Shown here in pieces: positions 5,812 to 24,690 of a stretch of DNA of 64,000 bases (position 1 is its first letter; every line of letters starts with the position of its first letter). A program made the translations under genes and the position numbers. The DNA comes from Synechococcaceae cyanobacterium (lineage in GTDB: Bacteria; Cyanobacteriota; Cyanobacteriia; PCC-6307; Cyanobiaceae). The stretch covers positions 1 through 64,000 of the forward strand of contig CANCJV010000017.1 in NCBI GenBank assembly GCA_947378425.1, in the 5' to 3' direction. Under the pieces are notes generated by a model, which was given only the letters and a program-made list of their open reading frames with translations, made no database searches and had not been told where the DNA came from.

Positions 5812-6078
5812 ATGCCACTCACCGTCAGGCTGGACAGCGAAACCGAGCGCTGCCTCCAGGAGCTCCTGGAGGCCACAGGCCAGGACAAGAGCACCCTCAT
5901 CCGCCAACTGATCCGCGATCGCTGGCAACAGCGCAGCCCTTCCCCCTCCATCACCGAGCAGCTGGGCGGCCATCCCGAACACTTCCTCGACACCCTGCCA
6001 GCCGGCAGCGCCGAACGCCAGGAGCGGCGCCGCCTGCTCACGGAGCAACTCCTGGCTCGCCGGCTGGAGAGGCGCTGA
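5812..6078 (+). CDS. Ribbon-helix-helix antitoxin paired with PIN toxin
   Basis: An 88-residue RHH protein: MPLTVRLDSETERCLQELL gives the strand and first helix, followed by TGQDKSTLIRQLIRDRW, the second helix. The rest is charged and would wrap the toxin. It should act as DNA-binding autorepressor and antidote of the PIN ribonuclease encoded by the next gene, whose ATG overlaps this stop (TGATG), the normal arrangement of VapBC modules. Confidence 0.82.
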   Translation: MPLTVRLDSETERCLQELLEATGQDKSTLIRQLIRDRWQQRSPSPSITEQLGGHPEHFLDTLPAGSAERQERRRLLTEQLLARRLERR

Positions 6079-6506
6079 TGCGGCGGATCCTGATCGATTC
6101 AGGCGTACTGCTCAGCTACTACCAGCAGCAGGAGCCCCTGCATCAGGCGGTGCTGGCCTTCTTTGATCAGAACACCGCGCAATTGATCACCTCGCCGATC
6201 TGCATCGCTGAGGTTCTGTGGCTGCTGGGGGATCCCAGGGATCGCCGCGTTCTCGCCGCTCAGAACCACCTGCTTGGAGCGGTCAGCCGCGGTGGCATCG
6301 ACGCGATCAACCTGCTTCCAGAGGATTACGCCCGCATCGCCGAACTCAACCAGCGCTACGCCGATCTGCCCGGTGATTTCGCCGATCTCACCTTGGTGAC
6401 ACTCTCGGAGCGGCTGGACATCGCCGAGATCCTCTCTCTGGACAGCGACTTTGATGTTGTTCGGCGCTTCCGGCGTGAGCCGTTCCGCCGGGTTCCCCTG
6501 CCTTGA
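6078..6506 (+). CDS. PIN-domain ribonuclease toxin (VapC-like)
   Basis: A 142-residue PIN protein, predicted Mg-dependent endoribonuclease toxin. The acidic residues of the fold are visible: Asp in ILIDSGVLL near the N-terminus, Glu in ICIAEVLWLL about residue 43, Asp in GDFADLTLV near residue 100, and Asp in ILSLDSDFDVV. Translationally coupled to the upstream RHH antitoxin. Full length and with no disruption, so the pair is probably functional. Confidence 0.85.
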   Translation: MRRILIDSGVLLSYYQQQEPLHQAVLAFFDQNTAQLITSPICIAEVLWLLGDPRDRRVLAAQNHLLGAVSRGGIDAINLLPEDYARIAELNQRYADLPGDFADLTLVTLSERLDIAEILSLDSDFDVVRRFRREPFRRVPLP

Positions 6507-9811: not shown

Positions 9812-11995
9812 TCAGCTGCCCTCCGGATCCGGATCTGAATCTGGGACTGGGATCGGGATCACCTGGTTGCGGCCCTGGCACTTGGCCTGATAGAGGGCCT
9901 GGTCGGCGCGGTTGATCAGCGTGGCCGCGCTCTCACCTCGCTGCGCCAGGGTGACGCCGATGCTGACGGTGATCGAGACCGTGCCGTCAGTGATCTCCAC
10001 CGGTGCGAGCAGGGTGGCCCGGATCTTCTCGGCAACGGCCATCGCCTGGTCGAGGTTGTCGACACCATCCAGCACCACCAGCAGTTCATCGCCGCCGAAG
10101 CGGGCCACGAGGTCATTGCGGCGCAGGCAGCTGCTGATGCGCTTCGCCACGGCGCGCAGAAGCATGTCGCCGGCTTCATGCCCCTGGGTGTCATTGATGT
10201 CCTTGAAGTGATCGAGATCACAGAACGCCACCGCCACCAGGCGATCGCTGCGCCGCTGGGACTGAAGCAGCTGATCCAGGCGCTCGAGCACTTCCTTGCG
10301 ATTCGCCAGTCCTGTCAGTTCATCGGTACGGGCGCGGTGCTCCAGCGCCTGTTCGCTGTTCACCTCGCTGTCCACCGTACGGAACGAGGCCACTTCTCCG
10401 TCCTTGTCGCCGTGGATGTTGATGTAGGCCTTGGCATGCACTTCCACCCAGTGATAACGGAGATCCCGGGCCCGCAACCTGAAGCGCACAACCACCGTCT
10501 CGGCACCGCGATCGAGCGAGGCCGTGATGCTGTTGAAAATCTCAAGATCATCGGCGTGAACCAGCTCTTCGAGCTGGCGGCCAAGCCAGTCGGTTGGCGT
10601 CCAGCCGAGCGTGTACTGAATCGAAGGGGACACCCATAACAATTGACCTTCGCGGACATGAATCACCACATCGGAAGAATTTTCAGCCAGCAGGCGATAC
10701 TTTTCCTCCGAAGCCGCCAAGCGCTGGGAGGTGAGATGGCGTTCAGTCACGTCGCGCCAAGTATAGCTGATGGAGTCACCAATCGCGACGCCGCGGATGT
10801 CATGGCGGCGACTCTCGCCCTGGATCTGCTGGGGGTAGACGAAGTCATTGAGCACCAAGGGTTGCTTTGTTTCCACCGTCTGGCAATACATCGCGAACAG
10901 CTCCCTGCCGTGTGGAGTAGGCATCACCTCAAGCAGGTGCTTGGCGATCAACTGATGGCGATCGCAGTTGATTTCCCTGCAGGCGCTGTCGTTGGCATCG
11001 GTATAAATGAAATCAACGATCTTGCCCTTGCTGTCGCGCACGGCTTCCAGCACCACATGGGGATCAAGCAGCGAATCCAGGGTGGCGGCCAGGCGGTTCC
11101 TTTCCTTCTCCAGAACGTGTCGTTGCTGCACCAGGGTGTCGACGTCCTGAAAGCTGCTGATCCAGCCCCCTGGGCCTTCGGGCGGCGCTGGCAGGGTCCA
11201 GGAGAGTCCCTGCATCCAGTGGAAGCTTCCCTCCCGGGACCGCAACCTGAGCAGCTGCGGTGATTGAGCGGATTCGGCCTTGAGTGTGAAGGTGTCATCA
11301 GGATGCACCAGGTCGGAGATGGCGGCATTGATCAGGTCGTTCACCTGCCAACCCAGCACCGTGACGATCGAGGAGGTCACCCAGGTGACCCGTTGCTCGT
11401 CGTTGGTTTCGATCACCACGGCGGAGGCATTTTCTGCCAGCAAGCGATAGCGGCGTTCACTGCTGACGAGAGCTTGCTCCGCCTGCCGAATGCGGCTGAT
11501 ATCGGCGGCGATCAGGCAATGAAATCTCACGCCATCGATCTCCAGGCCACTCATGGCCGCCAGCACCGGCAGGGCAGATCCATCAGGAAGCAGCAAGGAG
11601 AGGGGGGCATGGTCGGTGCTGCCTGGTGCCACCTGCAGCAGAGCCTCAAGGGCTGGCAGATCGGCAGCCACCACCAGGTTGCTCAGCTGCATGCCCAGCA
11701 TCGACATGCGCTCCCGGCCCGTCAGTTCCGCCAGGCGCTGATTGGCATAGAGCACCAGGCCCGCGCCTGAAATGGTGGCAGCACCCTCGCCCATCTGCTC
11801 CACAATCACCCGATAGGGACGATCTGCGGTGGTACGGGTGTAGACCCTGGCCGTTTCGCCTGGATTCGTACCGCTGGATTCCAGCACCAACGCATCCACA
11901 TCGCCGCTGGTGATGGCCTGCAGGGCCGCCTGGAGATCGTCCACCTGATGCTGAAGGTGTTCAACCTGGTCGGCCACAGCGCGCTTGTCTGGCAT
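9812..11995 (-). CDS. Multi-PAS diguanylate cyclase in the kai-like operon
   Basis: Predicted cytosolic sensor making cyclic di-GMP. The 727 residues show a short coiled N-terminus (1-35), four PAS-like units at roughly 60-170, 175-295, 300-420 and 430-545, and a GGDEF domain from about 550. The active-site signature is GGDEL (634-638), and an allosteric I-site RxxD (R625-D628) lies five residues before it. No EAL domain and no transmembrane segment. The gene begins 18 bases after the kaiB-like stop on the same strand, so it is likely the output gene of that operon. The fifth signature position is Leu instead of Phe, so activity should not be assumed. Confidence 0.9.
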   Translation of the reverse strand: MPDKRAVADQVEHLQHQVDDLQAALQAITSGDVDALVLESSGTNPGETARVYTRTTADRPYRVIVEQMGEGAATISGAGLVLYANQRLAELTGRERMSMLGMQLSNLVVAADLPALEALLQVAPGSTDHAPLSLLLPDGSALPVLAAMSGLEIDGVRFHCLIAADISRIRQAEQALVSSERRYRLLAENASAVVIETNDEQRVTWVTSSIVTVLGWQVNDLINAAISDLVHPDDTFTLKAESAQSPQLLRLRSREGSFHWMQGLSWTLPAPPEGPGGWISSFQDVDTLVQQRHVLEKERNRLAATLDSLLDPHVVLEAVRDSKGKIVDFIYTDANDSACREINCDRHQLIAKHLLEVMPTPHGRELFAMYCQTVETKQPLVLNDFVYPQQIQGESRRHDIRGVAIGDSISYTWRDVTERHLTSQRLAASEEKYRLLAENSSDVVIHVREGQLLWVSPSIQYTLGWTPTDWLGRQLEELVHADDLEIFNSITASLDRGAETVVVRFRLRARDLRYHWVEVHAKAYINIHGDKDGEVASFRTVDSEVNSEQALEHRARTDELTGLANRKEVLERLDQLLQSQRRSDRLVAVAFCDLDHFKDINDTQGHEAGDMLLRAVAKRISSCLRRNDLVARFGGDELLVVLDGVDNLDQAMAVAEKIRATLLAPVEITDGTVSITVSIGVTLAQRGESAATLINRADQALYQAKCQGRNQVIPIPVPDSDPDPEGS

Positions 11996-12013
11996 GGGGA
12001 GGAACGTGGATGG

Positions 12014-12316
12014 TTATGGCATGGGGCCAGAGCCGATCTCAAGGGCTGCCCGCACCCGCTCTTCGTTGCCCAGGTCGCCGACGAGATAGCGCCTGGGCTC
12101 AGGCCGATGCTTGACCAAGGTGGGGATGGCCAGAATGTTGTCGCGGATCGCCGCCTCTGGGTCTGTCCGGATGTCCACCACCTTGAGATCGGAGCGGCCT
12201 GCCAGTTCATGATCACAGATTTTGCGAATATTGGCCAAGGCTGCAGTCGAGCGGGGAGAGGCTCCATTGATATAGAGCGTCAGCACCCAGTGAAGGCCCT
12301 CCTGGATGGCATTCAC
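12014..12316 (-). CDS. KaiB-like protein
   Basis: A 100-residue thioredoxin-like KaiB family protein. The core reads WVLTLYINGASPRSTAALAN, then LKVVDIRTDPEAA and RDNILAIPTLVKHRPEPRR followed by the YLVGDLGNEERV segment, aligning with canonical KaiB (LYVAGNTPNS, ILATPTL, IGDLSDRERV). In the clock, fold-switched KaiB binds the KaiC CI ring. The GTG start overlaps the kaiC-like stop (GTGA). Divergence from canonical KaiB, the position behind an atypical KaiC and the absence of kaiA point to a KaiB2/KaiB3-type paralogue; which class cannot be decided without a phylogeny. Confidence 0.88.
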   Translation of the reverse strand: MNAIQEGLHWVLTLYINGASPRSTAALANIRKICDHELAGRSDLKVVDIRTDPEAAIRDNILAIPTLVKHRPEPRRYLVGDLGNEERVRAALEIGSGPMP

Positions 12317-14136
12317 ATGGATGCCTCTCGAATTCGTTCGGCCTCAAATTGATCGGTTGCGATGGCCTCCTGTCTTCGCCGTTGCTCCTCGTTCGCTTTC
12401 TCCAGCTCGCTGGATGTCGCTTCCAGCTCATTTTCTAGATCGGCAATCTGTGCTTTCAGCACGGCAGTGCGTCGTTGCAGGGAACTTTGATTACGCTTGA
12501 TGTTGGCAAGCCGGTTGTCAGCGATTCTGGCAAAACGAGCTAATTGTTGCTGACGAGCCGAACCGGTGAGAATTTCTCCACTCGGATCAATCATCACCTC
12601 GACGAGTTGGGCACCTTGGGGCGTGAGGATGAACTCCCGCACCTGATTCGAGTGGGCCATTCCCCGGCTTTTGATCACGAACAGCAAGCGGCTGCGCTCA
12701 CCATTGCGTTCGATGTTGCGTAGCAGCAGCCAGCTATCGGTGAGGGAAGACACTCCCACGGCACTCGATTCCTCTTCATTGCCATGGGTTAAGGATGTGA
12801 TCACGGAGGTGATTTCCCTCGCCTTGAGCACATCGATCTCCATGGAGAGGGTGGCTCGGATGCTTCTTTCCGGTCCCAGTTCGGCCAGGCTGCGCATGGC
12901 ATCGAGCACCACCACCCGGGGGCAGAAATCCTCCAGTGTGCGAACGAGCCGACCGAGGTGCTCCTCCAGTCCGTAGGCGGTGGAGCGCTCGGCCCAGATG
13001 TTCAGCAGACCGGCATCCACCCACTGCTGCAGCTCGATCCCCACCGAGCGCATGTTGCGGATCAGCCGGGCCTTTGATTCCTCGAACGAGATGAACAGGG
13101 CCCGTTCCCCCCGGCGGCAGGCCGCGTCCACCAGCTGGGCGGCGATGGTGGTTTTACCCGTACCAGCTCTGCCGCTGATCAACAGGCTGGCACCACGGAA
13201 GATGCCACCACTGAGCATTTGATCGAGCTGCTCCATGCCTGTGGAGATCCGTTCATCCGACGCCGTCGGGATCGATTCCGACCCGATCGAAGGCAACACC
13301 AAAAAACCCCGATCGGTGATCAGGAAGGGATACTCATTCGTGCCGTGCCCTGACCCCCTGTACTTCAGAATCCTCAGGCGGCGGGTGGAAATTTCTTCAT
13401 GCACGCGGTGGTCGAGCAGGATGGCGCAATCGGAAATCACCTCCTCAAATCCGTAGCGGGTGAGGTTGCCTTCCCGGCCCCGCTCCTCGGTCACCACCGC
13501 AGTGAGCTTGCGTTCTTTCAACCAGCGAAACAGGCGACAGAGCTCACCGCGCACCAAGACGTCATTGCCAAAACTGGCCAAGAGAACTTCGATCGTGTCC
13601 AGCACGATTCGCTTTGCTCCTATGGTGTCAATCGATTTCTCCAGGCGCAGAAACAGACCCTCCAGGTCAAAGTCACCCGTGGTCACGATCTCGGAGGGCT
13701 CGACGTGGAAGGCATCAATGATCAGCATCCCATCGGCCATCAAGGCTTCGAGATCAAAACCAAACGTGGCCATGTTTTCGATCAGGTCATTTCTGGATTC
13801 CTCGAAGGTGAACATCACGCCCGGCTCGCCGAAATCCTTGATGCCCCGCAACAGGAATTCGAGGGCAAACATGGTCTTGCCCGTGCCGGAGGCCCCGGCC
13901 ACCAAGGTGGGACGCCCCCTGGGCAGACCTCCAGCACTGATGCCATCAAACCCACGAATACCAGTGGGAGCCTTGGCCAGAGACCGAACACCAGGAGCTG
14001 GACCGCCATCTCCAGCCTGGCCCTGAGAATCACTGGATAGGGGCACGGTTCGATTCAGCTGCACAGCTTCAACGTAGCCATGCCCGAGCCACGGGATCGC
14101 GCCAACGGGAGAGATGTTGACCAGGATCCGAAGCAT
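12313..14136 (-). CDS. KaiC-like double-RecA ATPase
   Basis: A 607-residue KaiC family protein with CI and CII domains. Walker A motifs are GASGTGKT (81-88) and GRAGTGKT (322-329); catalytic Glu pairs lie in FTFEES (E112, E113) and SFEES (E352, E353). The site matching S431/T432 of the canonical protein is GVSSLTDSW, giving S463-S464, a two-serine pair. A 50-residue N-terminal extension precedes CI, and the tail from about 525 to 607 is a charged predicted coiled coil rather than the canonical A-loop region. No kaiA is adjacent. Probably a KaiC2-type paralogue rather than the core oscillator. Confidence 0.9.
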   Translation of the reverse strand: MLRILVNISPVGAIPWLGHGYVEAVQLNRTVPLSSDSQGQAGDGGPAPGVRSLAKAPTGIRGFDGISAGGLPRGRPTLVAGASGTGKTMFALEFLLRGIKDFGEPGVMFTFEESRNDLIENMATFGFDLEALMADGMLIIDAFHVEPSEIVTTGDFDLEGLFLRLEKSIDTIGAKRIVLDTIEVLLASFGNDVLVRGELCRLFRWLKERKLTAVVTEERGREGNLTRYGFEEVISDCAILLDHRVHEEISTRRLRILKYRGSGHGTNEYPFLITDRGFLVLPSIGSESIPTASDERISTGMEQLDQMLSGGIFRGASLLISGRAGTGKTTIAAQLVDAACRRGERALFISFEESKARLIRNMRSVGIELQQWVDAGLLNIWAERSTAYGLEEHLGRLVRTLEDFCPRVVVLDAMRSLAELGPERSIRATLSMEIDVLKAREITSVITSLTHGNEEESSAVGVSSLTDSWLLLRNIERNGERSRLLFVIKSRGMAHSNQVREFILTPQGAQLVEVMIDPSGEILTGSARQQQLARFARIADNRLANIKRNQSSLQRRTAVLKAQIADLENELEATSSELEKANEEQRRRQEAIATDQFEAERIREASM

Positions 14137-14177: not shown

Positions 14178-14224
14178 GTAGAATTTAGTTCTACAAAATG
14201 TTGATTTCTGTAAAATGTTGATTT
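14178..14224. promoter_or_regulatory. Operator-like inverted and direct repeats upstream of kaiC-like gene
   Basis: An inverted repeat GTAGAA-N5-TTCTAC occupies 14178-14194, followed directly by two copies of AAAATGTTGATTT at 14195-14207 and 14212-14224, a 17-base period. The block lies 42-88 bases upstream of the kaiC-like ATG, inside AT-rich DNA in an otherwise GC-rich region. This is where the operon promoter should be, so binding by a regulator is plausible; the regulator is unknown. Confidence 0.55.
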
Positions 14225-24398: not shown

Positions 24399-24416
24399 GG
24401 GGCCCTTCCAGGCCCC
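24399..24416 (-). terminator. Hairpin downstream of the tmRNA coding piece
   Basis: On the minus strand GGGGCC-TGGAAG-GGCCCC forms a 6-base-pair all-GC stem followed by TTT. It lies about 50 bases past the tag stop codon and is a candidate intrinsic terminator or 3' processing hairpin for ssrA. The T run is short. Confidence 0.5.
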
Positions 24417-24590
24417 ATGGATCATTTGGGTGACAAGGCTGATCTCACCCCGTCTCCGTTAAGAGTGTCAGGCAGCCACGGGGGCGGCTTGACGGGAGAA
24501 ACGAACGATGTTGTTCGCTGTTACGGGTTTGCTCTTACCGAGCAGGCTTCAGTCACCCTCCTTATGCCCCGTCGAAACCATTGCAGCCCC
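24417..24590 (-). ncRNA. ssrA: Split tmRNA, coding piece
   Basis: On the minus strand this begins with GGGGCTGCAATGGTTTCGAC, the hallmark 5' end of tmRNA, and carries the resume frame GCGAACAACATCG and onward. Its first seven bases pair with the CAGCTCC at the end of the acceptor piece (G-U once), rebuilding the acceptor stem although the acceptor piece is encoded upstream. This is the permuted, two-piece ssrA known from the Synechococcus/Prochlorococcus/Cyanobium lineage. With SmpB it rescues stalled ribosomes. The 3' end is approximate. Confidence 0.92.
24468..24518 (-). other. ssrA: tmRNA tag-peptide reading frame
   Basis: Seventeen codons from GCG (resume Ala) to TGA encode ANNIVRFSRQAAPVAA, a 16-residue degradation tag ending in the hydrophobic VAA expected for ClpXP/ClpAP recognition. 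Similar tags are known from marine picocyanobacteria. This is not an independently initiated gene. Confidence 0.93.
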
Positions 24591-24602
24591 GGAAAGGGGG
24601 AA

Positions 24603-24690
24603 TGGAGCTGAGCGGAATCGAACCGCTGTCCGAAACACTGGTGTGAGCCACCTAGTCGGCCCGAAGACCGACCCGTTCATCTTGCCACCG
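24603..24690 (-). ncRNA. ssrA: Split tmRNA, acceptor piece
   Basis: On the minus strand this contains a hairpin (GTCGG-TCTTCGGG-CCGAC), then ACAGCGGTTCGATTCCGCT forming the T arm, and CAGCTCC plus discriminator A. The 3' CCA is not encoded (ATT follows). The piece lies 5' of the coding piece, only 12 bases apart, confirming the permutation: the transcript must be cut in the short spacer to give two RNAs. The 5' boundary is approximate. Confidence 0.9.

Follow-up and report, generated by a model that had tools for sequence, protein, structure and literature searches.

A KaiA-less kaiC2-kaiB2 operon with a diguanylate cyclase gene in a picocyanobacterium: a candidate Kai timer with cyclic di-GMP output

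The nearest characterised relative of the system described in this article is KaiBC of Rhodobacter (Cereibacter) sphaeroides, an hourglass in which the ATP/ADP ratio governs the dynamics (Pitsawong et al. 2023, PMC10076222; PDB 8DBA, 8FWI, 8FWJ). In cyanobacteria, KaiC2/KaiB2 systems of the Synechocystis type (PMC5520375, PMC11372060) are encoded in operons without kaiA, and their role is an open question (PMC5520375). Homologues of KaiC2 outside cyanobacteria are linked to the stress response in Legionella and to adaptive growth in Rhodopseudomonas (PMC5520375). In a survey from 2011, the gene behind kaiC-kaiB clusters of non-cyanobacteria codes for a kinase or a GGDEF/EAL protein, and cyanobacteria are excepted (PMC3164672). 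A tie of cyclic di-GMP (c-di-GMP) to the cyanobacterial clock is only recent and indirect (PMC13001216). Here, we describe a kaiC-kaiB-diguanylate cyclase operon of a Synechococcaceae cyanobacterium (assembly GCA_947378425.1). It lies on a stretch of 64,000 nucleotides (nt) of contig CANCJV010000017.1, which is referred to as the window; feature coordinates are collected in Table 1.

We consider it reasonably probable that this operon encodes a phosphorylation/ATPase timer of the R. sphaeroides type that consists of KaiC2 and KaiB2 without KaiA and in which a dedicated output diguanylate cyclase replaces the usual histidine kinase. That c-di-GMP is the intended output of the KaiC/KaiB module is supported by the fusion of KaiB to the N-terminal module of the cyclase in related genomes and by the recurrence of HD-GYP and GGDEF outputs behind it. 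The way in which kinase, GGDEF, and HD-GYP domains replace one another behind one input module is a clean case of modular rewiring of clock output. Together with its HD-GYP sisters, the operon is a small and concrete test case for the possible control of a second messenger by a Kai timer with no kinase in between.

The operon is transcribed in the order kaiC, kaiB, cyclase gene. The GTG start of kaiB overlaps the stop of kaiC by 4 nt as GTGA, and the cyclase gene follows kaiB after a gap of 18 nt. A first-pass annotation made from the letters of the window had described exactly this arrangement, and the open reading frames and Pfam confirm it. The order of the trio is intact in its closest relative, a second species with 83-87% amino-acid identity (metagenome-assembled genome (MAG) Umea1p2_bin-0011; locus L059, genome G507). 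Overlap, spacing, and the conserved order suggest a single transcript, and the promoter scan gave no sigma-70-like match. The ratio of nonsynonymous to synonymous substitutions (dN/dS, NG86) between window and L059 is 0.14 for kaiC, 0.23 for kaiB, and 0.19 for the cyclase gene, indicating that the coding of all three genes is under purifying selection. Conserved order, purifying selection, and the recurrence of one N-terminal module behind kaiB across many genomes point to more than a chance neighbourhood.

No kaiA was found among the open reading frames adjoining the operon, which sets it apart from a KaiABC operon. The annotation's statement that kaiA is missing thus holds for the operon; it does not hold for the genome, since searches with PF06745 and KaiB revealed a canonical kaiA-kaiB1-kaiC1 cluster on contig C25 of the same assembly. 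With a normal KaiABC clock in the same organism, the window operon would represent an extra KaiC2-type system, whereas R. sphaeroides, an alphaproteobacterium, contains KaiBC only. The proposal of a distinct clock-like or stress system stands insofar as KaiC and KaiB are physically tied to a cyclase with intact motifs in a picocyanobacterium; its clock-like part has to be narrowed, with the nearest characterised relative being an hourglass and not a self-sustained clock.

The kaiC open reading frame codes for 607 amino acids (aa) and contains two Pfam KaiC domains above the cut-off (E 5e-105). Since the frame of L059 is stopped upstream of window residue 31, the ATG at 14136 was rejected as the conserved start, and translation probably begins with the GTG at 14046 (577 aa). 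The best solved relatives of the protein are 8DBA/8FWI, and its identity to the crystallised KaiC of the R. sphaeroides hourglass (KaiC_RS) is approximately 50%. The phylogeny that had been suggested as a check was calculated from 37 sequences, the KaiC1 and KaiC3 rows being assigned by kaiA linkage and motifs and not by names. Herein, the window KaiC falls into a clade of Cyanobiaceae (95/100) within the KaiC2-type proteins, a set of branches in which R. sphaeroides KaiC and KaiC2 from other cyanobacteria are also found and that is separated from KaiC1/KaiC3 by a 100/100 split. Two serines occupy the CII phosphorylation site (VSSLTDSW), a Ser-Ser pair being a mark of KaiC2 (PMC5520375). Both Walker A motifs and both catalytic Glu pairs are kept (GASGTGKT/TFEES and GRAGTGKT/SFEES), as are the Trp and Arg of the KaiC_RS allosteric path. 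By phosphosite, tree, and Walker A/Glu motifs, the window KaiC is a member of the KaiC2 subgroup; an identity as KaiC1 or KaiC3 was rejected by tree and motifs.

After the phosphosite, the protein continues with a tail of 139 residues, compared with 74-93 in KaiC1/KaiC3. AlphaFold models, which have low confidence (predicted local distance difference test score 57) and were used for secondary structure only, show this tail as one helix of approximately 80 residues (526-606). Hence, the window KaiC appears to carry a C-terminal coiled-coil extension of the KaiC_RS type, and a putative oligomer would be held together by it. In total, R. sphaeroides KaiBC shares with the window the KaiC2-type KaiC with its Ser-Ser site and coiled coil as well as the adjacent kaiB. 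The Synechocystis-type systems share the Ser-Ser site, the operon without kaiA, and the position in the KaiC2 clade; unlike the window, the other cyanobacterial KaiC2/KaiB2 copies sampled mostly comprise two kaiB genes and a PAS histidine kinase.

KaiB consists of 100 aa and matches Pfam KaiB with an E of 8e-23 (80.3 bits versus a cut-off of 27); it scores below the equivalog cut-offs for clock KaiB. Its best solved relative is the KaiB of 8FWJ. At the position of Gly88/89 of KaiB1, it contains an Ala, likewise present in the alignable Cyanobiaceae KaiB2 sequences. A KaiB chain of PDB 5JWO, which was reportedly engineered to favour the KaiC-binding fold, also carries Ala there.

The cyclase contains GGDEF (E 2e-48) and PAS domains above the Pfam cut-offs. 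Three PAS stretches are clear, and a fourth at approximately residues 310-415 gives a subthreshold match only in the close relative L059 and is weak in the low-confidence model. The A-site reads RFGGDEL, the metal/GTP residues are intact (stretch CDLDHFKDIND, CDLDHFKDINDTQGH), and the inhibitory RxxD site is present as RRND. An active diguanylate cyclase is therefore predicted from A-site and metal/GTP residues. Hydropathy indicates a protein free of transmembrane segments, in which no LOV motif was seen.

The N-terminal module of the cyclase is made up of a coil, the motif SGDVDALV, and the first PAS domain. It aligns with the N termini of proteins encoded directly after kaiB elsewhere, and the cyclase belongs to a family defined by a coil, (S/N)G(D/E)VDALV, and PAS in a gene directly following kaiB. 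The third gene of the R. sphaeroides cluster begins with the same module and continues as an HWE histidine kinase, as opposed to the diguanylate cyclase of the window. SasA and CikA of the KaiABC clock are signalling proteins that read the KaiB-KaiC state, as is proposed here for the cyclase. Unlike SasA, the cyclase contains neither a KaiB-like nor a kinase domain by Pfam, and its output enzyme is GGDEF.

The annotation had noted that kaiC-kaiB lies next to PAS kinases or GGDEF proteins in other bacteria, and the 2011 survey bears out such a neighbourhood with kinases or GGDEF/EAL proteins (PMC3164672). It had also called the use of such a trio undescribed. In those clusters, as in the window, kaiC-kaiB is grouped with a protein of c-di-GMP domains, so the claim holds only in part. 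The module common to the window cyclase and to kinases after kaiC-kaiB elsewhere appears to be new beyond this survey, the text of which names neither HD-GYP, nor a module common to both enzyme types, nor KaiB-module fusions. In the open-access literature, judged by titles and abstracts, no report of KaiC tied to an HD-GYP output was found.

The occurrence of the module was surveyed in 386 genomes across the cyanobacterial phylum (strong match outside Cyanobiaceae: E below 1e-26) and in 400 Cyanobiaceae genomes (strong match: E below 1e-60), with other phyla being covered through plasmids only; all counts refer to related genomes, not to independent events. Outside Cyanobiaceae, 15 of 16 strong matches lie directly downstream of kaiB. 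Of the 16, thirteen are histidine kinases, one of which is divided between two reading frames; the other three are PAS-GAF-GGDEF proteins, encoded as kaiB-module-PAS-GAF-GGDEF without adjacent kaiC in three genomes of one genus. The idea that module-GGDEF proteins are confined to picocyanobacteria was rejected because of these three genomes. On alphaproteobacterial plasmids, the module protein is an HWE or hybrid kinase.

Within Cyanobiaceae, all strong carriers are c-di-GMP enzymes: GGDEF proteins in three of eight (window, G507, G132) and HD-GYP proteins in five (G132, G044, G059, G507, G096), with no kinase output among these eight. Synechococcus sp. CS-1332 (G132) combines both in a kaiC-kaiB-HD-GYP-GGDEF operon with a 4-nt overlap at each junction, and in the Umea MAG G507 they are spread over two operons, kaiC-kaiB-GGDEF and kaiC-kaiB-HD-GYP. 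Next to its kaiC-kaiB-HD-GYP unit, G059 carries a divergent gene for a PAS-GGDEF protein; in G044, pieces of PAS-GGDEF lie immediately upstream. The HD-GYP module proteins retain HDIGK and HHExxxGSGYP, and the KaiCs linked to them form a supported group in the tree. In genus g30 (G121, G099), one protein joins a KaiB domain, the module, and a GGDEF domain in this order, which recalls the KaiB-like domain of SasA. The main grounds for assuming that KaiB and module work together are these fusions and the change of output domains behind a module that stays constant.

The g30 fusion genes (L145 5799-8051, L146 5413-8191) directly follow a sigma-70 factor gene, and a role as Kai-linked regulator of the sigma factor is possible. 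Module-like PAS-GGDEF proteins without KaiB occur in further Cyanobiaceae (L147 4780-7383, L148 5783-7732, L149 5446-7797, L150 5546-7981); some lack a clean GGDEF, and several are encoded directly after a sigma-70 factor. Other Cyanobiaceae loci (L042, L043, L046) carry kaiC2-kaiB2 without a module protein beside it or, in one case, a lone kaiB2. In other cyanobacteria, genes for REC-PAS-GGDEF-EAL or REC-GGDEF proteins adjoin ordinary kaiC2-kaiB-kaiB'-histidine kinase operons, which is a second kind of c-di-GMP link. One kaiC2 (L104 2499-5226) is by appearance interrupted by a transposase-type insertion.

By analogy to KaiC_RS, the KaiC of the window would assemble via its C-terminal coiled coil, autophosphorylate on the Ser-Ser pair at a high ATP/ADP ratio, and dephosphorylate with KaiB on the CI ring as the ratio falls. 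The coil-SGDVDALV-PAS module of the cyclase would read this state of KaiC and KaiB, with KaiB as its probable docking site, and its signal would pass along the string of PAS domains to a GGDEF dimer, so that c-di-GMP would track the state of the timer. Herein, we infer co-transcription, binding, direction of control, timing, and cyclase activity.

A further kaiC-kaiB pair of the same genome lies on the small contig C67 (L039 1-2035, minus strand). A single TAA interrupts the frame of its kaiC, and right after kaiB the contig runs out in poly-G, the following gene being absent from the assembly. Since the C67 KaiC falls into the supported group of HD-GYP-linked KaiCs, its lost partner is likely an HD-GYP protein, and a sister KaiC-KaiB-HD-GYP unit is probably cut off at the contig end. 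Such a unit would act in reverse by driving c-di-GMP degradation. More tentatively, the phase of a Kai timer might be passed straight to a second messenger, with paired KaiC-KaiB units steering a c-di-GMP synthase and a phosphodiesterase via one KaiB-reading module beside the normal KaiABC clock. The genome encodes three PilZ proteins as possible receptors for the cyclase output, one of them within a glycosyltransferase that by eye looks cellulose-synthase-like; a search for ComFB-type c-di-GMP receptors found none.

Several observations weigh against a Kai timer with cyclase output. The module may respond to a ligand instead of the Kai proteins. In Cyanobiaceae, the arrangement is rare and patchy, with the eight strong matches residing in six of the 400 genomes. 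Cyclase activity is not universal in the family, as the GGDEF domains of the G121/G099 fusions are degenerate, and neither is phosphorylation: in the KaiC of CS-1332 (L044 7224-8960), Thr-Ala replaces the Ser-Ser phosphosite, though the operon has both HD-GYP and GGDEF. The GC content of the operon (0.59-0.62 versus 0.66 in the window) is compatible with recent transfer.

An energy or stress switch is the most serious alternative, albeit a rather unlikely one. KaiC2-KaiB2 would be a direct reporter of the ATP/ADP ratio or of another stress and would set c-di-GMP without delay or memory of day length, which would fit the dependence of KaiC_RS dynamics on this ratio (PMC10076222), the roles of noncyanobacterial KaiC2 in Legionella and Rhodopseudomonas (PMC5520375), and a genome already equipped with a full KaiABC clock. 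However, the two-Ser site and the long coil, which carry the slow phosphorylation states in KaiC_RS, are conserved in the window.

It seems improbable that the cyclase acts on its own as a PAS sensor and has no more than a promoter in common with kaiCB. PAS domains may bind ligands of their own, co-transcription by itself is no proof, and this genome is rich in GGDEF proteins (13); yet the same N-terminal module follows kaiB in kinases, HD-GYP, and GGDEF proteins alike and is fused to KaiB in G121/G099. Very unlikely is a reverse flow, in which the Kai system would receive input from c-di-GMP metabolism, by way of GTP consumption or of c-di-GMP: the period of S. elongatus is longer when c-di-GMP is lowered, but this effect is indirect and c-di-GMP is inactive on the Kai proteins in vitro (PMC13001216), and a histidine kinase, an output-type protein, occupies the place of the cyclase elsewhere. 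That the operon was acquired or is decaying and has no role at present, for which its patchy occurrence, its lower GC content, the broken copy on C67 with its in-frame TAA, and a truncated kaiC in G096 could be cited, is slightly less credible still given the low dN/dS values and catalytic motifs that are all intact.

Table 1. Features of the kaiC-kaiB-cyclase locus and c-di-GMP genes beside kaiC2 operons elsewhere
Feature	Position	Strand	Basis
kaiC (KaiC2/KaiC_RS type)	12313..14136	minus	Pfam KaiC x2, tree, motifs, solved relative 8DBA
kaiB (KaiB2 type), GTG start	12014..12316	minus	Pfam KaiB, KaiB of 8FWJ, alignment
Multi-PAS diguanylate cyclase gene (predicted), 727 aa	9812..11995	minus	Pfam, residues, hydropathy, low-confidence model
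N-terminal Kai-associated module of cyclase (residues 1-180)	11456..11995	minus	Alignment with kinases and HD-GYP proteins after kaiB elsewhere
GGDEF domain of cyclase	9863..10333	minus	Pfam
Two imperfect 17-nt direct repeats 5' of kaiC	14184..14217	plus	Comparison with L059
REC-PAS-GGDEF-EAL/REC-GGDEF genes	L098 10511-12688, L099 2685-4859, L100 248-2395, L101 13361-14308, L104 10320-11957		

Downstream, the operon is neighboured by genes for a glyoxalase-like protein and MutS2, and upstream by a gene for a protein without assignment. The direct repeats 5' of kaiC sit in an AT-rich stretch that is missing from L059. Rfam detects no c-di-GMP riboswitch in the window. Apart from the operon, two small genes with a 1-nt overlap (5812-6506) resemble by eye a ribbon-helix-helix antitoxin and a PIN-type toxin, and a cyanobacterial transfer-messenger RNA (Rfam RF01851) is located at 24400-24688, where the permuted model of this RNA matches as well.

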